DNA from: Deltaproteobacteria bacterium | GTDB taxonomy: Bacteria; Myxococcota_A; Polyangia; Polyangiales; Houyiibacteriaceae | Assembly: GCA_013151775.1 (NCBI GenBank) | Contig: JAADHO010000051.1 | Span: 1-42,599, forward strand | Direction of reading: 5' to 3' | Length of the DNA stretch: 42,599 nucleotides | Part shown: piece by piece, positions 9,997 through 41,354 of the stretch | Layout of the letters: every line of letters starts with the position of its first letter | Numbering within the stretch: position 1 is the stretch's first letter | Translations under genes and position numbers: made by a program | The notes under the pieces: generated by a model | What the model saw: only the letters and a program-made list of their open reading frames with translations | Told to the model about the DNA's origin: nothing | Database searches by the model: none

Positions 9997-10003
9997 TGGG
10001 CCG

Positions 10004-11217: not shown

Positions 11218-11266
11218 GACTTCACTCTACGGACGTTTTCACCCAGAGGCAAAAATCTCCGTGGGT

Positions 11267-11288
11267 ATTTTGGACAGGTGTCCAAAAT
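11267..11288. promoter_or_regulatory. Perfect inverted repeat upstream of the DUF4143 ATPase (operator candidate)
   Basis: Arms ATTTTGGACA and TGTCCAAAAT are perfectly complementary over 10 bases and separated by GG. The element is palindromic at DNA level and AT-rich at its outer edges in a GC-rich genome. It ends 49 bases before the ATPase start, and a further TGTCC follows immediately. Size and symmetry suit a dimeric repressor. It could also be a hairpin or an insertion scar. No regulator gene lies beside it. Confidence 0.6.
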
Positions 11289-11510
11289 GTCCGTGCGGCA
11301 TCGCGATGTGGTGGCCGTCGGGCGGGGGATCGCCGCCAGCGCCGCACCGGCCGCGTTGGTGAGCGACGCGCCCGTGAGCTTGGCGAAGCGCGCGACACCC
11401 CGGAAGATCAGGTGGTCGCAGCTCTGATCGACAAGGGGCTGAGCGAGGTCGAGGCGAAGGCGATGGTGAGCTGGCTCGACGACGACGCGGTCATCCTGCT
11501 GCCGAAGTGA
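11287..11510 (+). pseudogene. Frameshifted gene remnant (C-terminal part)
   Basis: In one frame, D-V-V-A-V-G-R-G-I-A-A-S-A-A-P-A-A-L-V-S runs to about 11395. The natural-looking continuation, T-P-E-D-Q-V-V-A-A-L-I-D-K-G-L-S-E-V-E-A-K-A, is in another frame and ends at TGA 11508-11510. The two halves together read like one small protein with a Gly/Ala-rich helix and a conserved-looking end. They loosely recall DUF1269-type membrane proteins, whose ends often read E-E-E-A-K. No start was found, and the reading begins right at the inverted repeat. This suggests truncation by arrival of the ATPase cassette plus a frameshift. Confidence 0.35.
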
Positions 11511-11571
11511 GCGCTGACCTCGATCGTGGCCTGCTCCGCAGACTCGCGCAGAAACCCCTGACACGGCCGGA

Positions 11572-11785
11572 GCGAGCTTCGTGCGCGCGGCGCTGGCGCG
11601 CCCGATGGGCGGATCCAATTTCCAGGTGGAGGTGGATACCGCAGCCTCTGGGGCGACGGCGACGTCGCAGGCAGAAGCACGAGGCCCAGGAAGCCGTCTT
11701 CTTCGAAGGCCTGAATGAGCTGCGGAGTGAGCTGCCTGAGCCCTACGCCTCGGGAGTCGAGAGTTCCCTGGTCGAGCTGCGCTAG
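11572..11785 (+). pseudogene. Second broken coding remnant
   Basis: The stretch A-S-F-V-R-A-A-L-A-R-P-M-G-G-S-N-F-Q-V-E begins at 11572 in one frame and degenerates after about 11660. A second frame then gives F-F-E-G-L-N-E-L-R-S-E-L-P-E-P-Y-A-S-G-V and ends at TAG 11783-11785. The pieces have the composition of real protein but no common frame or start. It may be an eroded gene or chance; the evidence is weak. Confidence 0.25.
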
Positions 11786-11788
11786 GCT
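11783..11788 (+). promoter_or_regulatory. Candidate -10 element of mutM
   Basis: The sequence GCGCTAGGCT holds the hexamer TAGGCT, five bases before the mutM ATG. There is no Shine-Dalgarno sequence in the gap. It is identical to the hexamers before the MoxR gene and the DegT-type gene. Confidence 0.4.
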
Positions 11789-11793
11789 GTGCC

Positions 11794-12669
11794 ATGCCGG
11801 AGCTCCCCGAGGTCGAGGTCACGCGTCGCGAGCTATCGCCACATCTGCTCGGTCGCGTGATCGAGCGCGCGCGCACGACAGGGCCGAGTTACTTCTTTCT
11901 GACGACGCCGCGCACGCTTTCCCGTCGGCTGCGCGGCAGGCGTGTCGAGTCTCTCGAGCGTCGCGGCAAGTACCTGCTGCTCGGGCTCGAGGGTGGAGCG
12001 CGTCTCCTGCTCCACCTCGGCATGACCGGACAGCTCTTCTTCGACGGCGCGAGCAGCGTGCGTCTACTCTCCTCCACCGCAGCCGCGAGCTTGGCGCCGG
12101 AAGTCCAAGCGCGCTTCACGCCGGACGCGCACACGCATCTCACGCTCGAGTTCGAAGACGACGGCCCGCGTCTCTTCTTTCGTGACGTGCGCAAGTTCGG
12201 GAAGGTCGAGTGGCTGCCCGCCGGCGAAAGCTGTGCGCGTCTCGACAAACTCGGCGTAGACGCCCTCGAGGCGACGGGCGCGAACCTCCACGCCGCGGCG
12301 AAGAAGCGTCGCGCGCCGATCAAGAGCGTGCTCCTCGACCAGCGCGTGCTCGCCGGCGTCGGCAACATCTACGCCGACGAGGCGCTCTTCCTCGCGGGCG
12401 TGCGCCCCGACCGCGCAGCGAATCGTGTGAGCCGTGCGCGCTGCGACGCCATCGTCGAGGCCGCCCAGTGCGTGATGTTGCGCAGCATCGAGACGGGAGG
12501 CTCATCCATCAGCGACTACGTGCGCCCGGGCGGAGAGGACGGCGGCTATCAGGACGAGCGGCACGTCTATGGGCGTGAAGGCGAGGACTGCCCGACCTGC
12601 GGCGCGCTCATCCGAAAGACCAGCGTCGGTCAACGCGGCACGCACTACTGTCCACGCTGTCAGCGCTGA
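11794..12669 (+). CDS. mutM: Formamidopyrimidine-DNA glycosylase (Fpg/MutM)
   Basis: A 291-residue base-excision repair enzyme that removes oxidised purines such as 8-oxoguanine and nicks the abasic site. The N-terminus M-P-E-L-P-E-V-E supplies the catalytic proline (after Met removal) and glutamate. The conserved lysine is in R-R-G-K-Y-L-L-L. The helix-two-turns-helix region contains D-Q-R-V-L-A-G-V-G-N-I-Y-A-D-E-A. The C-terminal zinc finger has four cysteines in C-P-T-C and C-P-R-C-Q-R. Length is normal for the family. It stands alone, is convergent with the Cys-rich lipoprotein, and ends 18 bases before that gene's stop. Confidence 0.98.
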   Translation: MPELPEVEVTRRELSPHLLGRVIERARTTGPSYFFLTTPRTLSRRLRGRRVESLERRGKYLLLGLEGGARLLLHLGMTGQLFFDGASSVRLLSSTAAASLAPEVQARFTPDAHTHLTLEFEDDGPRLFFRDVRKFGKVEWLPAGESCARLDKLGVDALEATGANLHAAAKKRRAPIKSVLLDQRVLAGVGNIYADEALFLAGVRPDRAANRVSRARCDAIVEAAQCVMLRSIETGGSSISDYVRPGGEDGGYQDERHVYGREGEDCPTCGALIRKTSVGQRGTHYCPRCQR

Positions 12670-12687
12670 GCTTTGGAGACGGGGCGG

Positions 12688-13506
12688 TCAGAGGTAGGGA
12701 CCGCAGCGGCCCGTGGTGCTGTAACAGGTGTAGACGTCGCGCGAAGGACACTCCGCCGGCGTGGAGCAGGCGCACTCGTCGATCGGGATGCAGCGATCGG
12801 TCCAGCAGCTTCCCTGGACCTCCGGCGCCTGACCGTCTGGGCACACGGGCTCCACGCGGCGGCAGGTCACGGCGCTGCTGTTGCAGTTGGCGCCGGCTTC
12901 GCACGAGCCGAGGTGCGCGATGGGCTGGGAGGCGCAGGTCGAGCTGCCCGTGAACGAGCTGCCGTCGCAGCCGCAATAGGAGACGATGTCATCGGTGCAG
13001 GCGACGCCCAAGACCGAGCAGGTCCAGCTGTCTCCGCAGGCGGGACCGCCGATGCAGACGGCTCCTCCGGTGCACGGTGACGCGGCGCTGCAGCTGCCGT
13101 CCGTGGCGCCATCGAGCCGTGGACTCGCGTCGGTGCCCGCGTCCGTAGCGGCGTCGCTCACCATGGCGTCCATCGAGCCCGAATCCGCGATCGAAGAGTC
13201 GACCGCGGCGTCGGGCATCGAGGCGTCGAGGCATGCATTTGCGGTACAGAACGATGGCCCTGCGCAGGTGCACTCGCACCAGTTGCAGCCATTGTAGCAG
13301 GTGCTCTCCGAGCCGCCGCCTGTTGGAAAGGCGCTTGGCGTGCAGGCAGGGGCGCAGTTCGCAGCCGGGATCAACACGCTCCCCGGATCCGCGGCGCCTC
13401 TGCACAAGTCGCTAGCGTCCGTTCCTGTCGCAGCGTCGACCGATGTCGCGCCGTTGTTCGACGAGCACGCGAGCGCGAACACCAAGACCAAGAAGAGATA
13501 TCGCAT
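12688..13506 (-). CDS. Cysteine-rich lipoprotein
   Basis: A 272-residue secreted lipoprotein of unknown function. A short signal peptide ends in V-F-A-L-A-C (lipid-modified Cys14). A cysteine-rich section (C-Y-N-G-C-N-W-C-E-C-T-C) follows, then an Asp/Ala/Ser linker of the type found throughout this window, and a second Cys-rich part (about residues 135-272). The even spacing of cysteines suggests disulfide-stapled small modules outside the inner membrane. Paired motifs such as C-G-C-D-G-S-S-F are reminiscent of Kazal-like or myxobacterial surface modules, but no family was recognised. A Shine-Dalgarno sequence (GGAGGA) precedes the ATG. It is divergent from the acetate kinase-PduL gene. Confidence 0.82.
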   Translation of the reverse strand: MRYLFLVLVFALACSSNNGATSVDAATGTDASDLCRGAADPGSVLIPAANCAPACTPSAFPTGGGSESTCYNGCNWCECTCAGPSFCTANACLDASMPDAAVDSSIADSGSMDAMVSDAATDAGTDASPRLDGATDGSCSAASPCTGGAVCIGGPACGDSWTCSVLGVACTDDIVSYCGCDGSSFTGSSTCASQPIAHLGSCEAGANCNSSAVTCRRVEPVCPDGQAPEVQGSCWTDRCIPIDECACSTPAECPSRDVYTCYSTTGRCGPYL

Positions 13507-27225: not shown

Positions 27226-28668
27226 ATGAGCCCAGCGCGCGCACTCCTCTTCTCGTCCCTCTACCTCAGCCTCGGCGGCTTCTTCACGGCCTGCTCCAAT
27301 AGCCACAGCGTGGACGCTGACGCCGGCATCGTCTTTGACGCCAGCCGAGACGGCAGGGCGCCAGACACGGACGGAGCTGTACTCCCCGACGCGGGCCCTG
27401 CCCCCGTCTGTGGAGACTCTCGCCTCGACCCGGGCGAACAATGCGACGATGGCAACACCACGGACGGCGACGGCTGCAGCGGCGCGTGCAGGCGCGAGGC
27501 GTACTGCGGAGACGGCACGCTCGACCCAGGAGAGCTGTGCGACGATGGCAACCACCGCTCGGGCGACGGCTGCCGCTCCGACTGCGCCTCGGACGAGAGC
27601 TGTGGCAACGGCGTGCGCGACATCGTCGTCGGCGAGCAATGCGACGATGGCAACATGCTGGACGGCGACGGCTGCAGCGCCGACTGTCTCTCCCTCGAGA
27701 GCTGTGGCAACGGGATGCTCGACCCCGGCGAGCAATGCGACGACGCCAACTCCGACCGTTGGGATGGCTGCGCACCGGACTGCTACATCGAGCTGAGCCA
27801 GGTCATCCAGACCTTGGCCTTCGCGGGCAGTGGCTCCGGCTGCGACTTCAGCGGCGACGGTGTGGCCGACAATCAGCTCGCCGTGGCCCTCGGCCCCGTC
27901 CTGCCCCTGCTCAACGACATGGGCATCCAGCAGGGCATCGACAACGGCAACGTGATCCTGCTGATGAGCATGCTCGGTATGGACGATCTGACCGGCGCTG
28001 ACGACGACTCGCTGACCGTGGCGTGGATGCAGGGCGCAGATCCCGACGGCGACCCCAGCAACAACTTCAGCGGCAGCGCGACCTTGGCGCCCTCGGGTGG
28101 CTCCTTCGACACGGCGGGCAACCCCACGACCTCCTTCGCCAGTAGCCTGATGAGCAGCCAGCTCAACGGTGGACCCGAGGACATCGAGCTTCCGATCGCG
28201 GTCTTGCCCATCGAGCTGATGGGCGCCCAGATCTCGGGCACCACGCGCGCCGTGGCGGGCGAGCTGCACGACATCCAAGAAGGTCAGCTCTGCGGCGCCA
28301 TCCCGGTCACGACCTTCGCCTTCTTGCCCAACCTGCTCGACATGTTCACCGGCATGGCCAGCGAGGGCTGCGACGGCACGGCCGGCGCGACCTCCATGGC
28401 CGACGTGATGGTCGGCGGCACACCTCGTGGTTCACTGATCGCGCTGCGCGGCACGCAGCCCGACGTGGACGTGGACGGTGACGGACTCGAGTCCTTCGAG
28501 GTCGTTCGCAGAGGCGCCACCGGCTGTCAGCCGGTGATCACCGCCTGCATCGATGGCGACGGAACCCGAGTCGAAGGCCGCGACTGCGCCCTCGACCCAC
28601 GCTTCGAAGACGGCTTCTCCGCCTCCCTCGACTTCACCTCGATCCGCGCCAACCTCGTCGCGCCCTGA
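27226..28668 (+). CDS. DUF4215 (C-D-D-G-N repeat) lipoprotein
   Basis: A 480-residue secreted lipoprotein. The signal peptide ends in G-G-F-F-T-A-C (Cys23) and is followed by a short Asp/Ala linker. Four copies of the myxobacterial cysteine-rich DUF4215 module follow (about residues 60-190): [11 protein letters not shown] then D-G-D-G-C-S, with small variations and a near-exact DNA repeat around CAATGCGACGATGGCAAC. The C-terminal 290 residues have no recognised domain but are rich in Gly, Asp and Thr, like an extracellular beta fold. The modules are predicted to be disulfide-bonded and calcium-associated; their function is unknown. GGGAGG precedes the ATG at a good distance, unlike most genes here. 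Confidence 0.9.
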
Positions 28669-28792: not shown

Positions 28793-30127
28793 ATGACCGG
28801 CGAACGCGACGACTCCATCAGCAAGCTCTCTCCCCTCGACGTCGCGCACCAACGCCGCCTCGAGGGCGACGCCGCGGGCGCGTTGAGACACGCGCTGCCG
28901 ATGCTCGAGTCGGACATGGCGCAGGTCGGCGCGGCGGCGCTGATCTGCCGTGTGCTGATCGACGCGGATCGCTCCTTCGTCGCAGGCGAGGTGGCCAAGC
29001 GCTTGGTGGACGCCTTCTGTCGACGTGGGGACCTGCCGGCCGCGGTGGTCGCCGCGTCCATGGCCGAGAGCGCCGGCGAAGACGCCGCTGCCCTGCATCA
29101 GAGCATCGCCGAGGTCTTCGGCGCGGACTCGAAGCGCATCGGGGACGTACCTCCGGCGCCGCCTCCGCTGCCTGCAGCCGACGCGAAGGTGCTGCCCGCG
29201 ACGCTGAAGCTCGAGGCCCTGCTCGATCGCGCGGAGACCAGCCTCGAAAAATACCTGGCGTCGGACGACGCGACGGCGAAGGATTCACCCGTGCCTCGCT
29301 TGCCGCTCTTCGCCAAGCTCGCTCCGGAGGCCTTGGCGGTGTTGCTCGCTGCCTTCGAGGTGATCGAGCGCGCCGAAGACGACACGGTGATCGACCAAGG
29401 TGAGGAGGGACGGGAGGCCTTCGTGGTGGCGCGCGGCGCTCTGCGCGTCGTGCGTGACGTCGGGCAAGAGTCGGAGCTGCTGCTCGCGGCCCTCGGCCCC
29501 GGCGCCATCTTCGGTGAGATGGCCCTCGTCAGCGACGCCCTGCGCGCCGCTTCGGTGATCGCGGTGGAGCCGGTGATCCTGCTCGCCGCAGGACGCGACG
29601 CCCTGGAGTCCTTGGCCGCGCGCGAGGAGGTCGTGGGCGCCGAGCTCGGCGCCTTCTGTCAGGGGCGCATGGTCTCGAACCTCATCCGCCACAGCGCCAT
29701 CTTGGGCAGCGTTCCGCCCGACGAACGGCGCGAGTTGGTGCAGCGCTTCCAGACGCGCACCTTCGCTCCCGGCGAGAAGTTGATCGAGCGTGACCACGAC
29801 GTCGACGGCCTGTATCTCGTCGCGAGCGGCTGCGTCGAGGTCGTGGGTGAGGACGAAGACGGAGACAGCATCCGCATCGCCGCTCTGGGGCCCGGCGACG
29901 TCGTGGGCGAGATCTCCCTGCTCTTGCGTCGGGAGGCCACCGCGGACGTGGTCGCCAAGCACCCCACTGTCGCGCTGTGGCTCGAGAAGGACGCCTTCCG
30001 TGAGGTCATCCGCGAGCATCCCGCCCTGCTCGGCGAACTCTACGAAACCGCGACCCGACGCGAAGAGGAGACCCGCAGCGTGGTCGCCCAAGAGGCCCTC
30101 GAACTCGGCGACATCATCCTCCTGTGA
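28793..30127 (+). CDS. Protein with two cyclic-nucleotide-binding domains
   Basis: A 444-residue cytosolic protein. Residues about 1-110 are helical and TPR-like, followed by a Pro/Ala linker. Two Crp-type cyclic-nucleotide-binding beta-barrels follow: the first at about 165-280 with G-P-G-A-I-F-G-E-M-A-L, and the second at about 305-425 with G-P-G-D-V-V-G-E-I-S-L-L. Both keep the phosphate-binding G-E-x-x/L helix start. The usual following Arg (R-x-A) appears as L-R-A-A-S-V in the first and R-R-E-A-T-A in the second. There is no DNA-binding domain, so it is an effector or scaffold, not a Crp regulator. The class III cyclase at 8389-9996 could supply its ligand. It ends about 40 bases before the RiPP-type genes. 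Confidence 0.9.
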   Translation: MTGERDDSISKLSPLDVAHQRRLEGDAAGALRHALPMLESDMAQVGAAALICRVLIDADRSFVAGEVAKRLVDAFCRRGDLPAAVVAASMAESAGEDAAALHQSIAEVFGADSKRIGDVPPAPPPLPAADAKVLPATLKLEALLDRAETSLEKYLASDDATAKDSPVPRLPLFAKLAPEALAVLLAAFEVIERAEDDTVIDQGEEGREAFVVARGALRVVRDVGQESELLLAALGPGAIFGEMALVSDALRAASVIAVEPVILLAAGRDALESLAAREEVVGAELGAFCQGRMVSNLIRHSAILGSVPPDERRELVQRFQTRTFAPGEKLIERDHDVDGLYLVASGCVEVVGEDEDGDSIRIAALGPGDVVGEISLLLRREATADVVAKHPTVALWLEKDAFREVIREHPALLGELYETATRREEETRSVVAQEALELGDIILL

Positions 30128-30167
30128 TGCGACTTGAACAGATCCACGTCGGGACGAAACCTCTGTG

Positions 30168-31049
30168 ATGATGATGCCTCTAGCCCAGCCCTGCACCGAA
30201 ATCGGGAAGACCACGCGACTGAGCTTCGGAGGCGTCGAGGTGGAGTTGCTCGCGGACACCGCGCTGAGCCTGCCCGACACACACCTCGCTTGCGTCCCCT
30301 CGGGCTCCACGCCAACGGGGACTCCACGTGTGGTGTGCAGCGTGAACACCGACGCCTCGCTCCTTGGAGAGCGCCGCGAGACGCGTGCGATCACGCTCTC
30401 TGACGATGGTGATTGCCTGAAGACCCCGGGTGGGCGTCTGCGGCTCTCGAAGACCGGCGCTCGATGCTGGGTGGCGAGCGGTCGCGTCGCGCCTTCGGAG
30501 ACGGCGCTGGGAGCTCTGCTCGAAGGCCTCACCGCGGCCGTGCTCGAGCTGTCCGGCGGTCTGGTGATGCACGCGGCCGGTGTCGAACTAGACGGCAAGG
30601 CCTACCTCTTCGTGGGACCATCGGGTGCGGGCAAGACCACAGCGGCGGGTCAGGTCTTTGGCGGGCGCAGCTTCACCGTGGACCGCGTGGCGCTGTGCAT
30701 CTCGGCCCATGGCGCAGAGGCGTGGGCATTGCCAGGTGGCACGAAGCCAGACGAAATCGCTCCGCCAAGCGCACATGCTCGACTGCCCCTCGGAGGTGTG
30801 CTCCGGGTAGTGCAGGCGTCCAGAGTGCTCGCCCTCGAGCTAGCATCACATCAGGCGCTGTTGGTCTTGCGCGAGTCCATCTTGACGACGAACTCGAGTC
30901 AGGGCGCCGAGGAGCGGCGCCTCGACGCGATCCAACACTTCCTCTCTCCGGCGCCGATCGTTCGACTCGAGTTCGGCCTTGGTGCGCCTCTGGCGCACAG
31001 CTTGCGGTCGCTCGAAAGCCGCGCGACGAGACCTCGGGAGACTCCGTGA
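30168..31049 (+). CDS. HprK-related kinase of a RiPP locus
   Basis: A protein of about 293 residues with an HPr kinase-like P-loop domain in its second half: H-A-A-G-V, then Y-L-F-V-G-P-S-G-A-G-K-T-T (P-loop at about 150-158), then F-T-V-D-R-V-A-L, matching the Asp-containing strand of HprK-type enzymes. The N-terminal half is unassigned. Relatives without the HprK sensor domain occur in peptide-modification clusters, and lasso-peptide kinases of this fold phosphorylate a C-terminal serine. No HPr or PTS gene is seen here. The stop overlaps the PqqD-like start (GTGA). Several starts are possible: GTG 30165 and ATGs 30168, 30171 and 30174; 30168 is a compromise, and no strong Shine-Dalgarno sequence separates them. 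Confidence 0.88.
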   Translation: MMMPLAQPCTEIGKTTRLSFGGVEVELLADTALSLPDTHLACVPSGSTPTGTPRVVCSVNTDASLLGERRETRAITLSDDGDCLKTPGGRLRLSKTGARCWVASGRVAPSETALGALLEGLTAAVLELSGGLVMHAAGVELDGKAYLFVGPSGAGKTTAAGQVFGGRSFTVDRVALCISAHGAEAWALPGGTKPDEIAPPSAHARLPLGGVLRVVQASRVLALELASHQALLVLRESILTTNSSQGAEERRLDAIQHFLSPAPIVRLEFGLGAPLAHSLRSLESRATRPRETP

Positions 31050-31333
31050 AACCGCCCCTTCGCGTCCGGCAGTCGGAACGTCTTGCGGCTCGAACTATCG
31101 ATGGAAAGGGCGTGGTGATCGTGCTGGATCGCCAGATCGTGCACACGTTGAACGCTGTCGGGATGCGGGTGTTCGACCTCGCGGATGGACGTAGCACGGA
31201 CGAGATCGCTCAGGCTCTGATCGGGGAGTTCGACGTATCCCAAGAACAGGCCCATGCGGACGTGGATATATTTGTGCAAGAGTTGCTCGGACTCGGTGCT
31301 CTCGAAGAAGTAGAGCAGGGAGATCCCGCGTGA
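31046..31333 (+). CDS. PqqD-like RiPP recognition protein
   Basis: A 95-residue protein of the PqqD family, a small winged-helix recognition element that binds the leader of a precursor peptide and presents it to a radical SAM enzyme. Typical features are the N-terminal strands (V-V-I-V-L-D-R-Q-I-V-H-T-L-N) and G-M-R-V-F-D-L-A-D-G-R-S-T. The helical end is I-A-Q-A-L-I-G-E-F-D-V. It overlaps the HprK-like stop (GTGA) and the radical SAM start (GTGA), so the three proteins are made in a coupled way. GTG 31046 is the only start consistent with the overlap and the family length. Confidence 0.93.
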   Translation: MKPPLRVRQSERLAARTIDGKGVVIVLDRQIVHTLNAVGMRVFDLADGRSTDEIAQALIGEFDVSQEQAHADVDIFVQELLGLGALEEVEQGDPA

Positions 31334-32667
31334 GCACGACCAACTTTCTACTAAGCCAGGGCGCCGCCTCTGCCGTGGCAGCGCTGCGTACGGACGTCCA
31401 TAGCCCTTACACCGCGATGATCGAGGTGGCGGATCGCTGCAACGAGGTTTGCGTTCATTGCTATCAGGTGCAGGGACAGAAGGGAGAGATGACCACCGAG
31501 GAGGTCTGCTCCGTCATGGATCAACTCGCCGAGCTAGGCGTAATCTTCCTGACTCTGTCGGGCGGCGAAGCTACCCTACGCTCCGATTTTCTCGAACTCG
31601 TCGCGCACGCGCGCAAGCTCCGTTTCGCCGTGAAGCTCTACACCAACGGCTTGCGGATCGACGATGCCATGGCCGATCGTCTGGCCGAGCTCGCGGTGCA
31701 GGAAGTGCAGATGAGCCTCTACTCTCCTCGCCCGGAAGTGCACGACTGGGTCACGCGCGTGCCGGGGTCCCATCAGCGCACCGTCGCCGCGGTGCGCAGG
31801 CTCGTCGCACGAAAGGTACGAGTCGTCGTGAAAACGCCCGTGATGCGCTTCAACGCTCACGATCGTGACCGTTTCATCGACCTCGTGGAAGATATCGGTG
31901 CCCATTATATGCTCAGCACACACGTCGATCCGCGGGAGGACGGTGTGCGTGACCCAGAGATGTTGAGCATCGACCATGGAACGAACCTCGACATCCGTCG
32001 GGACTCCCGCGTCTTCGGCGAGACGGAAGAGGAGCCGGAGCCGCGAGCGCCCAAACTCGACCGAGCGCCCTGCGGAGCGTGCAGCGGCATGGTGCACGTA
32101 GAACCCAACGGTGAAGTTCATCCGTGCACCCAACTGAACCTCCGAATTGGCGGCGCCCTCGATGAGGGCGGCATCGCCAAGGCGTGGCAAGAGAATGCCG
32201 AGGCTCGGCTGCTACGCCACACGACCTACGCGGACCTGCACGGCTGCCGCGACTGCGCGCTTCATCCCTACTGTGCGCGATGCTACGCCAACGCTCTGAC
32301 TCAGGCCGGGGACGCCTTCGGGCCCTATGCGAGCGCCTGTGCAGACGCTCGCTTGGAGTACGAACTCGCTCACGGAGAGCCAGCACAGATCATCGACCAG
32401 CCGGACGCGATGGGTCCCTACGCCGCCGTGGCAGGAAACGCATTTCGGACAATCGAGGACCGGCTGACGGAAGAGGACCGAGCGAGGTACGCCAAACACG
32501 CCTGGCTACGACAGCCCGTCAAGGCGGAACCGCTCGCGCCTGCAGGCGGGCTGGTTCAAATTCGCCGGCCGGGAGCGCGAATGCCCGAGCCGTTGCAGTG
32601 GCCCGGTGCCTCGCCGACGTCCCACGAGGACGAATCCGGCAAGGCCAACCCCACGGCGGCAGAATGA
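31330..32667 (+). CDS. Radical SAM/SPASM peptide maturase
   Basis: A 445-residue radical SAM enzyme. The SAM-binding [4Fe-4S] motif is C37-N-E-V-C41-V-H-C44, followed by the G-G-E motif in L-S-G-G-E-A. The C-terminal SPASM domain has cysteines at 248, 251, 266, 306, 309, 315, 318 and 337, enough for two auxiliary clusters. SPASM enzymes with a PqqD partner install thioether, carbon-carbon or ether crosslinks, or epimerise, in ribosomal peptides. The last 60 residues are Pro-rich and unlike the family. The likely substrate is the 58-residue peptide at 36867. Start GTG 31330 overlaps the PqqD stop. Its own stop overlaps an ATG (32664) in frame with the next gene. Confidence 0.96.
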   Translation: MSTTNFLLSQGAASAVAALRTDVHSPYTAMIEVADRCNEVCVHCYQVQGQKGEMTTEEVCSVMDQLAELGVIFLTLSGGEATLRSDFLELVAHARKLRFAVKLYTNGLRIDDAMADRLAELAVQEVQMSLYSPRPEVHDWVTRVPGSHQRTVAAVRRLVARKVRVVVKTPVMRFNAHDRDRFIDLVEDIGAHYMLSTHVDPREDGVRDPEMLSIDHGTNLDIRRDSRVFGETEEEPEPRAPKLDRAPCGACSGMVHVEPNGEVHPCTQLNLRIGGALDEGGIAKAWQENAEARLLRHTTYADLHGCRDCALHPYCARCYANALTQAGDAFGPYASACADARLEYELAHGEPAQIIDQPDAMGPYAAVAGNAFRTIEDRLTEEDRARYAKHAWLRQPVKAEPLAPAGGLVQIRRPGARMPEPLQWPGASPTSHEDESGKANPTAAE

Positions 32668-32804
32668 CGCTATGCTTCTGCGGCCGGACGGCCGAAAGAC
32701 ATGCTGCCATGACGCCGACCGGGCGATGCTGTTACAGTTCTTACCTCGGGCCGAGAGCCCGGGAGGGGTGGTCGAAGAAGATGAACCAGAGCGAGGATTC
32801 CAAG

Positions 32805-35800
32805 ATGCGTGCTTTCTTTTCCGTTGAGCCTAGGGCGACGTCGGTGGTCGGTCTCATGCTGCTGGCCGCTGGGCTGCTCTCCGGATGTGGGGGAGGATCG
32901 AACGCGGCCACCCTGGTGATCGTGACCCCGCTGAACAACACGAACATCTCCTTGGCCGACGACGTGGACCCGGCGACCGCCGGCGTACAGATCGACGTGC
33001 TGGTGGATTCGACCCGCCTGACCGTCGACGACGGCGACATCACTATCTACATCGAGCCGAGTATCGACCGCTCGACCTTCGACTCGTCGAGCCTCACACC
33101 GGCGGGCAGCGCCACCCTCGCGGAGGATGGCACGGCCACCATTCGGGTGACGCTCGCCGACGGTGACTACGACATGATCGCCTGCGCTCGAGGGTTGTTG
33201 TGCGCTGTGCGCTCGCAGGTCGTGCGCATCACCGCGAGCACGGGCTGCGCCGCCATCTCCTTCACGCTGCCTGCAGGCCCGATCGCCGGCCGCACGGTCC
33301 TCGGACCGGAGGATGACGAAGACGGCACGGCCTGCGGCGAGACCTTCCAGACCACCATCAGCGTCTCCACCGACGCGGGCGACGGCGCGAGCGTCGCCTT
33401 GAGCGTCAACGGCGTCGCGGCGGGCACGACCAGCGTGGCCGGCACGGTGGCGACCTTCCCGGCGATCGTTTTGGGCAACCGCGGCGACACACCCAACACG
33501 CTCTCCGTGACTGTCACGCGGGCCGACGGAGTGAGCTGCGATCAGGACTTCCCCGGTCAGGTGATGGTCGACTGCATGGGCGTGAGCTGCACGCTGACTC
33601 AGCCGGACACGACGCGCGCCTTCCTCAACGCCTCCGACGACGTCTCGGCCATGGACGGATTCCAGGCTGACTTCGAGGTCAACAGCGACGCGGACGCCTT
33701 GGGTCAGCCCATTCAGCTGGTGATCGATGGCGACGAAGGCGGCGCCCTGAGTTCCGATCCCACCGCAGGCGGTGGCGGCGCCACGGCCAGCTTCGGTCCA
33801 GTCGACCTCACCGAGGGCCTGCATCGCGCCCAGGCGATCTGCTCGGACCGGGCCGGCAACGTGACGCGCTCGAGCGTGGGTGAGTGGACCATCGACACCA
33901 CGCCCTGCGGTGTCAGCGTCACAGACCCCGCAGCCGACATGCTCTTCGTCGACGCCGACGACGTGGACTCTTCCACGGACGGCATCCAGATCAACGTGAC
34001 GGGCACCAGCACGGGCAGCGACTGCAGCTTGGCCCGGGTGGGTATCTGCGAATCGACCTTGGCGGACGCGACCCTCACGGCGGACGCCTTCAGCGGTGTG
34101 GCGACCTTGGCCAGCTCGACCATGCAGGAGATCTGCGCCGAGGTGGAGGACGCGGCCGGCAACATCGCCGAGGCGCGCGTCGCGGTGCGAGTGCGCACGG
34201 ACGCACCGCAGATCGAGATCACGACGCCCACGGCGCCAGCGGCCTTCAACTCCGCGGGGGACGCGACCCACGGCGCAGACATGGACACGGCGACGCCCGC
34301 CTGCGACGCGGCCTTCAGCGTGAGATGCACCGAGGTCGACTCCGCGGTCGAACTCGTCCGCGAGGACACGATGGTGGTGCTCGGCACCGCGAACTGCGAC
34401 GCGACGGGTGGTCTGCCCGCGCCCTTCCTCGGCCAGGCGAACTTCGCCAGCGTCGCCCTCTCGAGCGTGAACGCGGCTGCCGGCAGCTACAACGTCATCG
34501 CACGCCAGACGGCGGATCGTCTGACGGGCACCTCCGCGCCGCTCTCGGTCGTCCCCGACTGCGACGTGCCGACGTTCACGCTCCTTCGTCCCTCGGCTTG
34601 TCTCGTGGGCGGAGCGGCCGTTCTTCGACCCGCAGGAGGCGATGACTCGGACCCCAGCACACCCGGATTCCAGTACACAGTCACCGTCGGCAACTCCAAC
34701 GCACCCCCACCCGACGTCGACCTTCGTGTGGATGGTAGCGTGGTGGCCACCAGCACGACCCGTTCGGGCGGCTCCAACGTCTTCACGAATCAGGATTTCA
34801 CGACGGGCGGCACGCTCGCTGTGGACGCCTGCGGCACGGACGTGAACGGCAACACGGGCTGCGCTCCGGCGTGCTCCGTGACGATCGTGGATCTGCCCAC
34901 GGTGAACATCACGGCGCCGACCGAAGGAGCGATCCTCGACGCCAGCGCCGACTGCGATAGCGGCACGGCGGGCTTCCAGGTGCGGGTGCAGGGAACCACC
35001 GACGCCTCGGCAGGGGCCGGTACGAGCGCCACGGTCACCATCAACGGCGGCGCGCCGGTGACCATCTCGCTTACGGGTTCGAGCTTCAACGCCTGTGTCG
35101 ACGCTCCTCAGGGTGCTGGTTTGCCGATCGTGGTCGAGGTCACGGACTCGCGCGGCAGCGCATCGGACACCGTGAACGTCACCATCGACAGCATGCCGCC
35201 CACGACCGCCATCTCGGATCTCGCGGTCGGTGCGGCCACGGATCGCCGCGGCGGCACGCTGCCCTTCACCTGGACGGCCGTTGCAGACGGCGGCACGGGC
35301 GGCGCGCTCTCGAGCTACGAGATGCGCTGCGCCAAGACGGCCATCACGAGCGAAGCCGACTGGACCGCCGCCACGACCTTCGCCATCAGCACGACGCCGG
35401 GTAGCCCGACGAGCGTGGAGATGGAGACCGTCGGCGGGTTCCGCGTGGGTGAGACCATGTACTGCACCATGCGCGGCAGCGACGTCACGGGCGCCATGAC
35501 GCCCATCGGCAACGACCCCACCGTGACCCTCGACTTCCTCGAGCAGTCGGTGACGGGCTCCACCTCGGATATGGGCTGGAGCTTCGCCGCGGTGGGTGAT
35601 GTGAACGGTGACACGGTGGACGACTTCATCGTGGGTGGAGTGACGACGGCCTACCTCTTCTTCGGCTCCACGACCAGCCTTCCCACGGCGCCCGCGGTGA
35701 CCTTCACCGGGTTCACGACCAACGGCACGATCGGCGTGATCACCGCTGGCTTGGGCGACTTCAACGGAGACGACATCAACGATTTCGCGTTCTCTTCAGG

Positions 35801-36836
35801 GGGCGAGAGCTTCCCCGCTGGAGCCGCGTACATCGTCTATGGTCACGATTCCACCACGCCGTGGCCAGGGGCAGTCAGTATGGCTGCCGGCGGCTGCGGG
35901 GCTGATGTTTGCTTGCGAGGCACGGCGCCGTCCGGTCTGTCGGATGTGCAAGGTCTCGCGGCGATCGGTGATTTTAATGGAGATGGGTTGGCCGACATCG
36001 CGGTAGGTACCACCTTCGAAGGCTTCAGCGGGGGGATAGCGCCGGGCGCCGCATACGTCGTCCTCGGAAGCGCTTCGCTCAGCGGAAACGTGACCGTGCC
36101 GGGTGGAGCCGGCACCCTGGACGGCTTCAAGATCACGTCGCCGACTGGGTCCGACTTTTTCGGCAACGCGATCACATCGATGGGAGATGTCGATGGGGAC
36201 GGACGCGCCGACATCGTCGTCGCCGATGTCGGGCAGCCGACTGGGCACGTCTACATCGCCCGCGGCAGGGCTTACACCGGGACCGGGATGATCGACGTGT
36301 CCAGCACGCTGATCGATTCGGGTCCCGCGATTTTTGCCAATCGAGTGATGAACATCGGTGACTACGACGGCAACGGACAGGTTGATTTGGCCATCTTCGA
36401 AAAACTGACTATCAACCGCGGGCGTGTGCGCATCTATCCCGGCAGCGCTGGCGCATATTCCGCCGCCACTAGTTTTGTCGTTACCAACGACACGTCCTCG
36501 CCCAACAGCGACGGTTACGGTCGTTTCCTTGCTCAGGGCGGTCATCCTGTCTTCGGTCTGGTAGGTGATCTGGACGGAGACGGACGCGCTGACGCGCTGA
36601 TCGGATCAGAACAGCGCGGTGGTGGTCGTGGATCGGTCGAACTGTACTACGGTCAGGCTGCTGGAGATCGAAACCGATCGCAGGCGGACCATTCATTCCG
36701 TCCCGTGGCCAGCACCGGCAGCACAGCGCGAACGAGCAGCTACATTGGTGACGTGGACGGCGACGGCTTCTCCGATTTCGCCATCGGCGACCCCACCGGG
36801 CAATCCGGGGCTGGCGAATTCTGGATTGAGCACTAG
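32805..36836 (+). CDS. Large Ig-like/FG-GAP repeat lipoprotein
   Basis: A 1343-residue exported lipoprotein. The signal peptide ends in A-A-G-L-L-S-G-C. About six Ig-like repeats follow, each opening with I/V-x-x-P and a D-D-x-D-x-x-T-x-G-x-Q block (for example D-D-V-D-S-S-T-D-G-I-Q-I-N-V). A fibronectin-like segment (about 800-910) comes next. Seven FG-GAP repeats follow (G-D-V-N-G-D, G-D-F-N-G-D twice, G-D-V-D-G-D-G-R, G-D-Y-D-G-N, G-D-L-D-G-D, G-D-V-D-G-D-G-F), forming a predicted seven-bladed, calcium-binding, integrin-alpha-like propeller. It lies between the maturase and the precursor, so it may be the peptide's surface partner. ATG 32805 fits the signal peptide; ATG 32781 and the coupled ATG 32664 are alternatives but would put polar residues first. 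Confidence 0.9.
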   Translation: MRAFFSVEPRATSVVGLMLLAAGLLSGCGGGSNAATLVIVTPLNNTNISLADDVDPATAGVQIDVLVDSTRLTVDDGDITIYIEPSIDRSTFDSSSLTPAGSATLAEDGTATIRVTLADGDYDMIACARGLLCAVRSQVVRITASTGCAAISFTLPAGPIAGRTVLGPEDDEDGTACGETFQTTISVSTDAGDGASVALSVNGVAAGTTSVAGTVATFPAIVLGNRGDTPNTLSVTVTRADGVSCDQDFPGQVMVDCMGVSCTLTQPDTTRAFLNASDDVSAMDGFQADFEVNSDADALGQPIQLVIDGDEGGALSSDPTAGGGGATASFGPVDLTEGLHRAQAICSDRAGNVTRSSVGEWTIDTTPCGVSVTDPAADMLFVDADDVDSSTDGIQINVTGTSTGSDCSLARVGICESTLADATLTADAFSGVATLASSTMQEICAEVEDAAGNIAEARVAVRVRTDAPQIEITTPTAPAAFNSAGDATHGADMDTATPACDAAFSVRCTEVDSAVELVREDTMVVLGTANCDATGGLPAPFLGQANFASVALSSVNAAAGSYNVIARQTADRLTGTSAPLSVVPDCDVPTFTLLRPSACLVGGAAVLRPAGGDDSDPSTPGFQYTVTVGNSNAPPPDVDLRVDGSVVATSTTRSGGSNVFTNQDFTTGGTLAVDACGTDVNGNTGCAPACSVTIVDLPTVNITAPTEGAILDASADCDSGTAGFQVRVQGTTDASAGAGTSATVTINGGAPVTISLTGSSFNACVDAPQGAGLPIVVEVTDSRGSASDTVNVTIDSMPPTTAISDLAVGAATDRRGGTLPFTWTAVADGGTGGALSSYEMRCAKTAITSEADWTAATTFAISTTPGSPTSVEMETVGGFRVGETMYCTMRGSDVTGAMTPIGNDPTVTLDFLEQSVTGSTSDMGWSFAAVGDVNGDTVDDFIVGGVTTAYLFFGSTTSLPTAPAVTFTGFTTNGTIGVITAGLGDFNGDDINDFAFSSGGESFPAGAAYIVYGHDSTTPWPGAVSMAAGGCGADVCLRGTAPSGLSDVQGLAAIGDFNGDGLADIAVGTTFEGFSGGIAPGAAYVVLGSASLSGNVTVPGGAGTLDGFKITSPTGSDFFGNAITSMGDVDGDGRADIVVADVGQPTGHVYIARGRAYTGTGMIDVSSTLIDSGPAIFANRVMNIGDYDGNGQVDLAIFEKLTINRGRVRIYPGSAGAYSAATSFVVTNDTSSPNSDGYGRFLAQGGHPVFGLVGDLDGDGRADALIGSEQRGGGRGSVELYYGQAAGDRNRSQADHSFRPVASTGSTARTSSYIGDVDGDGFSDFAIGDPTGQSGAGEFWIEH

Positions 36837-36849
36837 AGTCTCCCTATGC

Positions 36850-36858
36850 GGAGGAGAG
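36850..36858 (+). promoter_or_regulatory. Strong Shine-Dalgarno sequence of the precursor peptide
   Basis: GGAGGAGAG lies eight bases before ATG 36867. It excludes the ATG at 36846, which lies in front of it, as the real start. It is the strongest ribosome-binding site noticed in the RiPP locus, as expected for a peptide needed in large amounts. Confidence 0.65.
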
Positions 36859-36866: not shown

Positions 36867-37043
36867 ATGTCTTCAAGAATCGACGACACGAAACAACCCA
36901 TCGAGAATCCCGGTCGCAAGCGATACGAGGCGCCTCGCGTCGAGGACTCGGCGCGCTTCGAAACCTTGGCAGCGGGCTGCGGAAGCATTCTGTCCGGTCC
37001 AGCCGACGGTGGAGCCTGTGGTTTCAGTTCGCAGTTCAGCTGA
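36867..37043 (+). CDS. Candidate RiPP precursor peptide (58 residues)
   Basis: A 58-residue peptide with a leader/core look. Residues 1-19 are polar and charged. Residues 20-35 form Y-E-A-P-R-V-E-D-S-A-R-F-E-T-L-A, resembling the Y-x-x-P-x-(hydrophobic)...E-T-x-A motif of small peptides next to PqqD/radical SAM genes. The core (36-58) is Gly/Ser-rich with Cys38 and Cys51 and ends in F-S-S-Q-F-S. Two cysteines would suit thioether crosslinks, and the terminal Ser58 would suit the HprK-like kinase. It lies 30 bases after the FG-GAP lipoprotein gene and 4.2 kb after the maturase, and is followed by a stem-loop. The role is inferred from context and motif. Confidence 0.75.
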   Translation: MSSRIDDTKQPIENPGRKRYEAPRVEDSARFETLAAGCGSILSGPADGGACGFSSQFS

Positions 37044-37207: not shown

Positions 37208-38200
37208 GTGTCCGAAGCGGCCATCGAGCATCCGCGCGCGGAGCTGTCCAGCGCGTCCATGACGGAGTCGGCGACGCGAGTCGCGCACGTCTTGGTGGCG
37301 AACGTGGAGCGCGTGCTCGAGGGCAAGCGCGACGTGGTGGAGCTGGCGGTCACGGCCATCCTCGCCAGCGGGCATCTGCTGGTCGAGGACGTGCCCGGAG
37401 TGGGCAAGACGACTCTCGCGCGTGCGCTGGCCGCTTCACTCGGTGTGACCTTTCGACGGTTGCAGTTCACGTCTGACCTGATGCCCTCCGACGTGATCGG
37501 CGGCAACGTCTACGATCCCAACACCGGCAGCTTCTCCTTCCGGCCCGGCCCGGTGTTCACGAACGTGCTGTTGGCGGACGAGATCAACCGCACCACGCCC
37601 AAGACTCAGAGCGCGCTGCTCGAGGCCATGGACGAAGGACAGGTCTCCGTCGAGGGTGAGACGCACGTCCTCGACGATCCCTTCTTCGTCGTGGCGACCC
37701 AGAACCCCGAGGATTTCTACGGCACCTATCCGCTGCCCGAGTCGCAGCTCGACCGCTTTCTTCTGCGCATCCACATCGGCTATCCGCCGGCGGACGTCGA
37801 GCGGCGTATCCTGCGCGAGCGCCGAGGACGCGATCCCCTCGACTCCATCAGCAGCTGCGTGTCGGTGGAGCAGCTGCGTCAGGCGCGCGCCGCGTTGAAT
37901 CACGTGCGCGTGGAAGACGTGCTGCTCGACTACATGCACGCGCTCGTGCTCGCGACCCGATCCACGCCCGCTCTGACTCTGGGCGCCTCCACACGCGCGG
38001 CCCTGGCCCTCGAGCGTGCGGTGCGCGCGCGTGCCTTGGTCGCCGGTCGACGCTTCGCCATCCCGGAAGACGTCGAGCAGCTCGCCGGATGCGTGCTGGC
38101 CCACCGCGTGCGAGTCGAGAGCCCGGACCCGCGCACGGCCACCGAAGACGCCGAGCGCGTCATCCGCGCGCTGCTCGAAGAGGTCGACGTCCCCGTATGA
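37208..38200 (+). CDS. MoxR family AAA ATPase
   Basis: A 330-residue MoxR-type AAA+ ATPase, a chaperone that remodels or activates metal- or membrane-associated partners. Walker A is D-V-P-G-V-G-K-T-T, Walker B is V-L-L-A-D-E-I-N-R-T, and sensor 1 is F-F-V-V-A-T-Q-N-P-E. The family hallmarks Y-P-L-P-E-S-Q-L-D-R-F and F-R-P-G-P-V-F-T-N are present. An N-terminal tail of about 20 residues is variable. It is first in the MoxR-DUF58-transglutaminase operon found across bacteria. The stop overlaps the DUF58 start (ATGA). Start GTG 37208. Confidence 0.96.
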   Translation: MSEAAIEHPRAELSSASMTESATRVAHVLVANVERVLEGKRDVVELAVTAILASGHLLVEDVPGVGKTTLARALAASLGVTFRRLQFTSDLMPSDVIGGNVYDPNTGSFSFRPGPVFTNVLLADEINRTTPKTQSALLEAMDEGQVSVEGETHVLDDPFFVVATQNPEDFYGTYPLPESQLDRFLLRIHIGYPPADVERRILRERRGRDPLDSISSCVSVEQLRQARAALNHVRVEDVLLDYMHALVLATRSTPALTLGASTRAALALERAVRARALVAGRRFAIPEDVEQLAGCVLAHRVRVESPDPRTATEDAERVIRALLEEVDVPV

Positions 38201-39240
38201 GCGCCGGGCGCCGCCGCAGGCGTTTTTGGCAGCGCAGACGCACCCGGCGCAGCTTTCGCCTCACACGCGAGGGCAAGGCCTTCGTCCTGGTCACCCTCGG
38301 TGTGGGCGTCGCCGCGGTGAACACCGGCAACAACCTGCTCTACCTGGTGCTCGGCCTGATGCTCAGCCTGTTGCTCGTCAGCGGTGTGCTCAGCGATCTT
38401 GCGCTGATCGGTCTGCACGCGCGACGCATCTTGCCTCGACGCATCTTCGCCCAGACGCTCTGTCGCGTGGAGGTCGTGCTCCGCAACAAGAAGCGCTTCT
38501 TCCCGAGCTTCTCGCTCGAAGTGGAGGACGTCGTCGATGGAGAGGACACGCCCACGCGCTCCTACTTCTTGAAGGTCCCGCCGCGCGGAGAAGATCGGGT
38601 CTTCTACCCGCACCTAGCAGCACGTCGTGGGCGCCGGCGCTTCACTCACCTGCGCCTCGTGACTCGCTATCCCTTCGGTCTGATCGAGAAAGGCCGCGTG
38701 ATCCCGGCGGAGGAAGAGGTGATCGTCTTCCCGCACATCGAGCCTCGCTCTCCCCCACGGCCCACGCGCCAAGCCAAGATGGGTGAAGACGCCACGTGCG
38801 TCCGCGGACCGGGTAGCGAGCTGGCGGGGCTTCGCGACTACGCGCCCGAGGACGAGGCACGCGACATCCATTGGCGCCGGACCGCCTCCCTCGGCAGCGT
38901 CGTGGTGCGCGAACGTGAGCGGGAACGGGGCGTGGAGCATTGGCTGGTTCTGGACGAGGCGACCGCAGAGCCCGACGATCCAGCTTTCGTCGAGGCCTTC
39001 GAGCTCGCCGTCTCCGAGCTGGCCAGCCTCGCCACCGCCAGCCTCGCCGCTGGATACGCCGTGCGCGTGGCGAGCCGCACGCTCACCTCACGTCGCTTCA
39101 CACCGGAGCGCTCGCCCGATGCGCTCTACCGCCTGCTGGCGCTGCTCGAGCCCAGGGCCCTCGAGGGCGCCCCGGCCTTGGTGGCACCCCACGACGCCAG
39201 AGTCGTGCGTGTGGCCGCGCAGATCGAGGCGGCCGAGTGA
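38197..39240 (+). CDS. DUF58 membrane protein (VWA-like)
   Basis: A 347-residue protein of the DUF58 family. A very basic N-terminus (R-R-R-R-R-F-W-Q-R-R-R) precedes two close membrane segments (about residues 27-65: F-V-L-V-T-L-G-V-G-V and L-V-L-G-L-M-L-S-L-L-L). A C-terminal cytoplasmic domain carries the family motif G-L-R-D-Y-A-P-E-D-E-A-R-D-I-H-W-R. Members work with the MoxR ATPase, presumably presenting a von Willebrand-like surface. Role details are unknown. It overlaps its neighbours on both sides (ATGA and GTGA). Confidence 0.95.
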   Translation: MSAGRRRRRFWQRRRTRRSFRLTREGKAFVLVTLGVGVAAVNTGNNLLYLVLGLMLSLLLVSGVLSDLALIGLHARRILPRRIFAQTLCRVEVVLRNKKRFFPSFSLEVEDVVDGEDTPTRSYFLKVPPRGEDRVFYPHLAARRGRRRFTHLRLVTRYPFGLIEKGRVIPAEEEVIVFPHIEPRSPPRPTRQAKMGEDATCVRGPGSELAGLRDYAPEDEARDIHWRRTASLGSVVVRERERERGVEHWLVLDEATAEPDDPAFVEAFELAVSELASLATASLAAGYAVRVASRTLTSRRFTPERSPDALYRLLALLEPRALEGAPALVAPHDARVVRVAAQIEAAE

Positions 39241-41354
39241 AGTTCTCGAGCCTGCACTTCGGCGTAACGTATCTCCTGGCGGGCCTGGGCTTCGTGGCCT
39301 TGAGTCTGGGCTCGGCCATGGGCCCGATCCAGCGCCTGGCCATGTTCCTGGCCTTCGTCGCGACGGCCTTCGTCACGCCTCGCCTGATGCGCGACGCGCG
39401 CTGGTCTCAGGCCTGGACCGTGATCGTCCTGGCCGGCCTAGGTGTACAGATCATGCGAGGGATCTCGGGCGAGCCCATCTTGCATCTGGGCATCGAGTAC
39501 GCGGCCCTGCTCCAGCTCTCGCGCCTCGCCTATCGCCCGACGGCGCGCGAGTACCAGCAGATCGCCATCATCAGCTTCCTGCACCTGATCTCCGCCACCG
39601 TGCTCTCCTCGGGCCTCGGCTACGGGCTGGTCTTCCTGGGCTTCGTGATCGTGCTGCCGTGGATGCTCGCGCTCACTCACCTGCGCGCCGAGATCGAGCG
39701 CCACTACGGGGACTCCACCACGGGGCCGAGCGTCGCGCGCGTGCTCGCCTCGAAGCGCGTGGCGGGGCCCGCCTTCTTGCTGGGCACCGCCTCACTGACG
39801 CTGCCGCTCTTCGCCATCACTGCGATATTTTTCCTGGCCTTTCCGCGGGTCGGCATGGGCTTCCTCAGCTTCGGCCATGGCCCGGGACGACAGGTGGCCG
39901 GTTTCGGTCGCAACGTGCAGCTCGGTGGTTTCGGCGCCATCCGAGACGACCCGACGGTGGTCTTGCGCGTGAAGGTGCCCGGGCTCCCGAGTCCTCCGCC
40001 CGAGCGCCTCGGCCTGCGCATGCGCGGGACCTCCTTCGACCACTACGAGGACGGCGAGTGGACGCGTTCCCACGGCACGACGGCGACCATTCGCGAACGC
40101 CACGGCTTCTTCCCGCTCTCCCGCTTGCCCCAGAGCGCCACCGAGCGGCGACTTCAGATCATTCTCGACCCCTTGGACGAGCCCGTGATCTTCCTGCCTG
40201 AAGGCACGATCGGGATCAGCACGCCTCCGCGCGTGCTCGCGGGCCTGTCCGTCATGCGCGACATCGTGCGCTCCGATGGCATGGACGTGCGCTACACGGA
40301 CGCTGACGGATTGGAGTTCACCTACACCGCGCATGTCTCCACGCGCGCGCCCTCCGCGCCGACGGATCCGATCGACAGCGAAGCCTTCGCCCGCTACCTG
40401 GAGCTGCCCAGAGGACAAGAGCGCATCGTCGCCTTGGCGCGGCGCTGGACCGCCGGCGCGGCTTCACCGGGAGCTCGAGCCGACCTGTTGCTGAGACATC
40501 TGCGCGACAGCGGTGACTTCCGCTACACGCTCGAGCAGCCCGACACCCACGGCGACGATCCTCTCGAGGTCTTCCTGTTCGAGGCTCGCGCCGGGCATTG
40601 CGAGTATTACTCGACCGCGCTCGCCGTGATGTTGCGCGGGCTCGGCGTGCCAGCGCGCAACGTCACGGGGTTCTTGGGCGGTCGCTACAATCGTTTTGGC
40701 GGCTACTACGCGGTGCGCCAAGGCGACGCCCATTCGTGGGTCGAGGCCTGGATCGACGAAGGCTGGGTCACCCTCGACGCGACCCCTGCGACCCGCGAGC
40801 TGCTCGGGCCGCGCGACGGCATGCTCGGCGGTCTGCGCGCGCTACTCGACGCCATGAGCATGCGCTGGGCGCGTCACGTGGTGGGCTACGATCTACGTCG
40901 GCAGGCCGCGACGCTGCGCGAGCTCATGGGCTACTTTGAGCGCTGGCGTCGCCCGGGAGGATCGACAGCCGAGCACGAGGAGATCAGCCCAGCCGCTGGA
41001 ACGCAGCGCCGCAGCCAGAGGCCGAGTCTCGCTTGGTTGCTGCTCGCGCTGCCGCTCCTGCTCGCGTGGTGGTGGCGAAGGCGCTCATCGCCTCCAGTCT
41101 CTCCAGACGACGCCCGCCTTCGACGAACTCTGCGCCTCTACCGCAGGCTGGACGCCCGCCTCGCCCGCCGAGGCCTCTCGCGTCCACGCAGCCGCGCGCC
41201 CACGCGTCACCTGCGGGCCCTGCGTGAAGCCGACTTCGAGGGGCTCGAGACCGCCGAGGAGATCACCGCGCTCTACCTCTCCGTGCGCTACGGCGGAGCC
41301 TCGGCCGAGAGTCAGGATCTACGGCGCCTGGAGCGAAGCGTGCGTGATCTGTGA
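39237..41354 (+). CDS. TgpA-like membrane transglutaminase (DUF3488)
   Basis: A 705-residue membrane protein. About six to seven membrane segments fill residues 1-210 (DUF3488). A periplasmic transglutaminase-like domain follows (about 400-530), with Cys in R-A-G-H-C-E-Y-Y-S-T-A, His in D-A-H-S-W-V-E-A-W, and Asp in T-L-D-A-T-P. A further membrane segment near residue 600 (L-L-L-A-L-P-L-L-L-A-W-W-W) leads to a C-terminal DUF4129-like helix region. The triad is complete, so it is probably an active peptidase or transglutaminase acting on the envelope. GTG 39237 overlaps the DUF58 stop by four bases. Confidence 0.95.
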   Translation: MKFSSLHFGVTYLLAGLGFVALSLGSAMGPIQRLAMFLAFVATAFVTPRLMRDARWSQAWTVIVLAGLGVQIMRGISGEPILHLGIEYAALLQLSRLAYRPTAREYQQIAIISFLHLISATVLSSGLGYGLVFLGFVIVLPWMLALTHLRAEIERHYGDSTTGPSVARVLASKRVAGPAFLLGTASLTLPLFAITAIFFLAFPRVGMGFLSFGHGPGRQVAGFGRNVQLGGFGAIRDDPTVVLRVKVPGLPSPPPERLGLRMRGTSFDHYEDGEWTRSHGTTATIRERHGFFPLSRLPQSATERRLQIILDPLDEPVIFLPEGTIGISTPPRVLAGLSVMRDIVRSDGMDVRYTDADGLEFTYTAHVSTRAPSAPTDPIDSEAFARYLELPRGQERIVALARRWTAGAASPGARADLLLRHLRDSGDFRYTLEQPDTHGDDPLEVFLFEARAGHCEYYSTALAVMLRGLGVPARNVTGFLGGRYNRFGGYYAVRQGDAHSWVEAWIDEGWVTLDATPATRELLGPRDGMLGGLRALLDAMSMRWARHVVGYDLRRQAATLRELMGYFERWRRPGGSTAEHEEISPAAGTQRRSQRPSLAWLLLALPLLLAWWWRRRSSPPVSPDDARLRRTLRLYRRLDARLARRGLSRPRSRAPTRHLRALREADFEGLETAEEITALYLSVRYGGASAESQDLRRLERSVRDL

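Follow-up and report, generated by a model that had tools for sequence, protein, structure and literature searches.

A widespread family of candidate precursor peptides encoded with a PqqD-type RRE, a radical SAM/SPASM enzyme and an HprK-like kinase in Myxococcota

Several described systems resemble parts of the locus analyzed here. In the paeninodin system the C-terminal Ser of the precursor is the residue that the kinase PadeK modifies, and the known lasso kinases carry the motif His-Lys-Asp-Asp, as given in the available portion of the source (PMC9266682). Linear polyphosphorylated peptides (LPP) are phosphorylated at core Ser3; the accessible text of the paper that describes them gives [Y/W]xxPx[L/V/I/A/F/Y] as the RRE-binding leader motif, names an NTP transferase as a partner gene in both paeninodin and LPP clusters, and does not contain the word "radical" (PMC13381572). 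In quinohemoprotein amine dehydrogenase (QHNDH), according to the sections available, a radical SAM enzyme crosslinks a small subunit whose partner is a beta-propeller subunit (PMC8172795). In the open-access PMC literature searched, no description of the combination reported below was found, and the precursor family, which is widespread, is apparently undescribed.

The DNA analyzed (the window) comprises 42,599 nucleotides of contig JAADHO010000051.1 (assembly GCA_013151775.1), from a bacterium placed in the Houyiibacteriaceae (Myxococcota_A). Genes for a cNMP-binding protein, an HprK-like kinase, PqqD, a radical SAM/SPASM enzyme, an FG-GAP lipoprotein, the peptide and a MoxR-DUF58-TgpA group follow one another in this order (Table 1). 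Just 5' of the cNMP-binding gene, positions 27226-28668 encode what is probably a lipoprotein, rich in Cys and containing DUF4215 repeats.

Table 1. Positions of the features of the locus within the window.
Feature	Position	Strand	Remarks
Protein with two cyclic-nucleotide-binding domains	28793..30127	+	Upstream gene, kept in near relatives
HprK/PEPCK-fold kinase-like protein (fold from a predicted structure)	30165..31049	+	His136 and Walker-A Lys157 present; first Asp of the DD pair is Val
Discrete RRE, PqqD family	31046..31333	+	PF05402 5e-14; nearest solved structures are lasso-peptide RREs
Radical SAM/SPASM maturase	31330..32667	+	CX3CX2C; C248, C266, C306, C309, C315, C318, C337
FG-GAP/Ig-like lipoprotein	32781..36836	+	Pfam FG-GAP 8e-22; lipobox LLSGC; immediately 5' of the precursor gene
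Shine-Dalgarno sequence GGAGGAG of the precursor gene	36850..36856	+	-10.2 kcal/mol
Precursor peptide gene (very probable), 58 aa	36867..37043	+	Leader YxxPxV (20-25) and FETLA (31-35); core from about Cys38; Cys51; C-terminal Ser58
MoxR - DUF58 - TgpA-type transglutaminase genes	37208..41354	+	Syntenic downstream in near relatives; no sign of a role in the pathway

The initial annotation had proposed a 58-residue precursor with the leader elements Y-x-x-P-x-V and F-E-T-L-A followed by two Cys. Translation yields exactly these elements (Y20-E-A-P23-R-V25, F31-E-T-L-A35, Cys38 and Cys51), and the homologues and purifying selection described below bear out that the ORF is real. An alternative start at 36846 would give 65 residues; the start adopted in Table 1 is the better one because the longer reading would begin upstream of the ribosome binding site. 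This site had been described as much stronger than those of the neighbouring genes, which holds against HprK (-4.0 kcal/mol), PqqD (-7.4), radical SAM (-8.2) and MoxR (-2.4) and is overstated in view of the FG-GAP gene (ATG at 32781; -11.9) and of the long spacing of 12 nt between GGAGG and ATG. The separation from the maturase gene was also as claimed: 4199 bp lie between the two genes and are occupied by the FG-GAP gene, which ends 30 bp before the precursor start. The layout is conserved in relatives, but it is one of several and not universal.

The 6.05-Mb genome holds a single PqqD (Pfam), a single HprK-like gene and a single precursor gene, all in this operon. No second precursor was detected in it by a single-sequence search (other rows at E 0.6 or worse) or by a profile search (one match). 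No exporter and no NTP transferase were found among the window genes scanned, nor any signal-peptidase-type motif in the window by regex. No Pfam or NCBIfam family matched the window peptide or six other peptides scanned, one of which is only a distant candidate (L201). Among the matches listed for the three enzyme genes against NCBIfam, none was above its cut-off. The 58-residue ORF very probably encodes the precursor peptide of a radical SAM RiPP system that depends on an RRE.

Homologues were sought in several genome sets. A scan of a genome contig collection with the single peptide returned no relative, and a single-sequence search of 33 genomes of the family returned three true relatives, which share the leader, differ in their cores and all lie in the order cNMP-HprK-PqqD-rSAM-FG-GAP-peptide. 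A profile of 20 precursor rows, with matches counted at E 0.01 or better, had matches in 40 of 183 genomes of the order and in 51 of 377 genomes drawn from the phylum; in both searches there was usually one precursor per genome. Those near relatives that come from named records belong to MAGs with the labels Sandaracinaceae, Sandaracinus, Polyangia, Myxococcales and Kofleriaceae. Beyond the phylum, a Chloroflexi record (L193; order HprK-PqqD-rSAM-peptide) and an unplaced bacterium (L195) also carry the peptide. In the latter, FG-GAP, precursor, two adjacent radical SAM genes and HprK stand in a row (positions 9690-13177), and both radical SAM enzymes may share the precursor.

The peptide gene tracks the maturase genes. 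A maturase search of the 183 genomes of the order found a close maturase in 26, and 21 of these carry the precursor at the maturase locus. In two others (G034, G045) it lies on another contig, the break falling inside the FG-GAP gene; in two (G053, G172) the sequence ends at or inside the FG-GAP gene, before the position of the precursor; and in one (G069) the maturase is present and the profile finds no precursor. In this last genome, an ORF just downstream of the maturase (L086:9684-10241) contains RRRPYVAPAREGGGGFTPITLGT and is perhaps a different precursor type. Conversely, of 40 regions fetched on the stronger precursor matches, 37 hold HprK-like kinase, PqqD or radical SAM genes, the remaining three being contig-end fragments with an FG-GAP gene. 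Fourteen weaker matches were also fetched. Ten lie beside system genes; four of these end in Ser/Thr, as read by eye from the printed tails, and at least one (L224) is without core Cys. The other four (L223, L225, L229, L236) have no system genes nearby and were taken as chance matches. In an acidobacterial locus (L201:935-2801; profile E 0.08), the ORF that follows a PqqD-rSAM pair contains YEPPRI and has a Cys-rich/Gly-rich tail ending in GIGS; judged by its sequence, it looks like a further precursor family.

The family follows the leader pattern Y-x-x-P-x-[VIFL]..(F/L)E.xx(A/S)LxxC. Sixty precursors were tabulated (L067 was left out as a duplicate of L066), and at least two Cys follow the leader in 60/60, a count that is not fully independent, as the Cys columns belong to the search profile; in three genomes (G177, G439, G386) the first Cys was missed by the regex and read by eye. 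The first two Cys are mostly 6-14 residues apart, and some precursors have a third; in L161, L162, L168 and L171 the core opens with a CxxC that includes this third Cys (C[AS]GCLN). Over the 20 profile rows, mean information was (i) 3.0 bits in the leader block, (ii) 2.0 bits between the Cys, (iii) 4.3 bits at the second Cys and (iv) 1.7 bits in the tail. The alignment of small ORFs in related genomes, suggested earlier as the check on which the proposal would stand or fall, thus came out in its favour: the leader and both Cys are kept and the rest of the core varies. The summed pN/pS of 14 close pairs, which share genomes, was 0.28, which indicates that close precursor pairs are under purifying selection.

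The last residue is Ser in 46 of the 60 precursors, Thr in 7 and another residue in 7, so that 53/60 end in Ser/Thr, compared with 38/238 for the genes that neighbour them (Ser 23, Thr 15). Members of one genus are counted repeatedly in the 53/60; by family, at least one member with a Ser/Thr terminus was found in 14 of the 17 families listed.

The leader of the window peptide and of the family agrees with the published RRE motif, and the closest PDB matches of the RRE profile were TbiB1 (2e-14), a PqqD-family protein, a lasso-peptide PqqD chaperone and TfuB1 (9e-7), with PqqD of PQQ biosynthesis after these (2e-5). The maturase matched the Pfam radical SAM (4e-23) and SPASM (4e-5) families, and its profile had its best PDB matches in the sactisynthase SkfB (7e-34) and PqqE (2e-26).

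For the kinase, the sequence profile retrieved mostly generic P-loops from the PDB, and the fold search was therefore relied on. The predicted structure (pLDDT 86.6) matched PEPCK (2e-7) and HPr kinases (6e-5 to 9e-4) in Foldseek, and a second structure aligner gave Z 13.3 against PEPCK (rmsd 5.4, 253 residues aligned); as modelled, the protein has a PEPCK/HprK fold. It is related to the kinases that act on the C-terminal Ser in paeninodin-type systems. His136 and the Walker-A Lys157 are invariant. The acidic pair reads D-[D/E] at 39 of the 53 loci and x-D or similar at 14, including the window (Val-Asp); phosphorylation of the terminal Ser may therefore be expected with good reason in most lineages and with much less assurance in the window. 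A terminal Ser/Thr is absent in 4 of the 14 loci with an incomplete pair; a link between a degenerate kinase and loss of the terminal Ser was considered and set aside as a mere trend (Fisher p 0.07). In family f3 (L076-L083), two HprK-like genes are found at most loci; the acidic pair is intact (DD) in one and replaced by S-N, H-N or N-N in the other, which suggests, from the motifs, pairs of a kinase and a pseudokinase.

Gene layouts vary around this core. A radical SAM gene is present on 53 of the 60 precursor stretches, codirectional in nearly all, and the gap between it and the precursor is above 3 kb in 26/53, 300-3000 bp in 15/53 and 300 bp or less in 12/53. In 38/60 loci the gene immediately 5' of the precursor, in the same orientation, encodes an FG-GAP protein, and 30 of these 38 proteins have a lipobox by a loose regex, some being fragments or doubtful. 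Family f38 mostly has the order PqqD-FG-GAP-peptide-HprK-rSAM. Nine loci have the order HprK-PqqD-rSAM-precursor with no FG-GAP gene, which is also the order in genus g10; in g10, f17 and f20 the fetched stretch carries the precursor and enzymes and no FG-GAP gene. In genus g56 (L085, L087) the precursor lies ~3.4 kb from the radical SAM gene on the opposite strand, and the profile finds no FG-GAP gene. An S26/S24-like, signal-peptidase-type motif occurs near 18/62 precursor loci and 5/34 other fetched loci (by regex only), with Peptidase_S24 confirmed weakly in L155 and L193; the Chloroflexi locus L193 holds this S24/S26-like peptidase together with an NTP transferase (7e-52).

We are confident that an RRE-dependent, radical SAM-modified peptide, either a RiPP or a RiPP-like small protein, is made from the product of the ORF, along the following proposed pathway. 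The PqqD-type RRE would bind the YxxPxV leader, a step for which homology gives good grounds. The radical SAM/SPASM enzyme would then modify the two-Cys core, as proposed because precursor and radical SAM genes co-occur; a thioether or another cross-link through the conserved Cys would be the most likely product, although thioether chemistry is a guess by analogy with the nearest enzyme, to which we give slightly less than an even chance. In most lineages, in which its active site is intact, the HprK-like kinase would phosphorylate the last residue, Ser, in the manner of PadeK in the paeninodin system; such phosphorylation is on balance probable for the family and doubtful for the window. The leader would be removed by a signal-peptidase-like enzyme or a host protease, and the product may function on the cell surface together with the FG-GAP lipoprotein of the adjacent gene, a partnership that we put forward tentatively.

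The FG-GAP gene is also central to a different account of the product, in which the peptide is not a secreted natural product but a small subunit or ligand that stays on the lipoprotein and is matured by the radical SAM enzyme, as the QHNDH gamma subunit is by QhpD. The position of the FG-GAP gene in 38/60 loci, the lipobox in most of the upstream proteins (30/38, loose regex), the single precursor per genome usually seen, the synteny with ordinary genes in near relatives and the QHNDH precedent of a crosslinked small subunit with a beta-propeller (accessible part of PMC8172795) all point this way; g10, f17 and f20, which keep precursor and enzymes with no FG-GAP gene on the fetched stretch, argue against it, and we regard it as somewhat unlikely. 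The same adjacency could mean that the FG-GAP operon encodes the peptide as a small, conserved protein that is no substrate of these enzymes at all. This is highly improbable, given that the precursor accompanies the enzymes in the nine loci devoid of FG-GAP and combines an RRE-binding motif with a variable core.

The likeness to phosphopeptide systems raises the question of whether the product is of lasso or LPP type and the radical SAM gene incidental. The lasso-like RRE, the HprK-like kinase, the C-terminal Ser and, in the Chloroflexi locus L193, the NTP transferase with an S24/S26-like peptidase would suit such a product, but the radical SAM gene on 53/60 stretches, codirectional in nearly all, the conserved two-Cys core and the failure to find a lasso cyclase domain in the scanned genes of the window (20846-41354) make it very unlikely. 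That the ORF arose by chance, with spurious motifs, has a negligible probability: the window is GC-rich and contains many short ORFs, but homologues, synteny and purifying selection refute such an origin.

Under the preferred reading, that of a radical SAM-modified precursor, the missing substrate of the radical SAM/PqqD/kinase operon is named and belongs to a family with dozens of representatives among Myxococcota that also reaches at least one genome of the Chloroflexi. It would join radical SAM modification of a core with HprK-type phosphorylation of a terminal Ser, which are separate in the literature searched, and the tie to a surface lipoprotein makes both the chemistry and the cellular role testable. 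A more specific picture, which we consider unlikely as a whole, is that of a system spanning the phylum, with a two-Cys peptide that the radical SAM enzyme cross-links, the HprK-type kinase marks at its C-terminal Ser and the large surface FG-GAP lipoprotein keeps bound; if true, the system would be a cell-surface module and not a diffusible natural product.

Among described systems, paeninodin-type lasso peptides (PadeA/PadeK) share with the locus a YxxPx[L/V] leader, a discrete lasso-type RRE, an HprK-like kinase and a C-terminal Ser, which in the window is Ser58. It differs from them in having a radical SAM/SPASM enzyme and a two-Cys core instead of a lasso cyclase (no Asn-synthetase-like cyclase was found by Pfam scan among the window genes at 20846-41354), and the His-Lys-Asp-Asp motif of the window kinase is incomplete, its first Asp being Val. 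LPP, as far as described in the available text of PMC13381572, likewise combine an HprK-like kinase, a discrete RRE and a YxxPx[V/L] leader, with a signal-peptidase-like leader peptidase shared by part of our loci; the present family differs from them in its Cys core, radical SAM enzyme and terminal Ser, and of the SpI peptidase and NTP transferase that accompany HprK and RRE in LPP, neither was found, the former by motif search of the window and the latter among its scanned genes, whereas both are present in L193. Sactipeptides and ranthipeptides (SkfB, CteB) share the core Cys and a radical SAM enzyme with a SPASM-like Cys pattern, SkfB being the closest solved one, and the pattern for auxiliary Fe-S clusters (predicted) typical of their maturases is present; the discrete RRE and the kinase set the present system apart, and a thioether is only putative here, where conserved Cys are seen.

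The SynChlorMet cassette (ScmC, ScmD, ScmE/F) also brings HprK-like, PqqD-like and radical SAM/SPASM proteins together, but the window has one radical SAM gene instead of two and scores far below the NCBIfam cut-offs (ScmC 26.8 of 125 bits, ScmD 23.7 of 100, ScmE 105.9 of 400). Scores also fell below the cut-offs of the models for GeoRSP (PqqD 36.8 of 100 bits, rSAM 105.5 of 400) and PQQ biosynthesis (PqqE 98 of 381 bits, PqqD 23.2 of 46). The quinohemoprotein amine dehydrogenase system (QhpC/QhpD) resembles the locus in that a small Cys polypeptide matured by a radical SAM enzyme is encoded with a beta-propeller protein; no heme or CTQ genes were seen in the present system. Judged by its sequence features, the window system thus falls outside SynChlorMet, GeoRSP, PQQ, lasso peptides and LPP, and it has the general features of an RRE-dependent RiPP: a PqqD-like RRE (PF05402) encoded with a short precursor that combines a conserved leader with a variable core.
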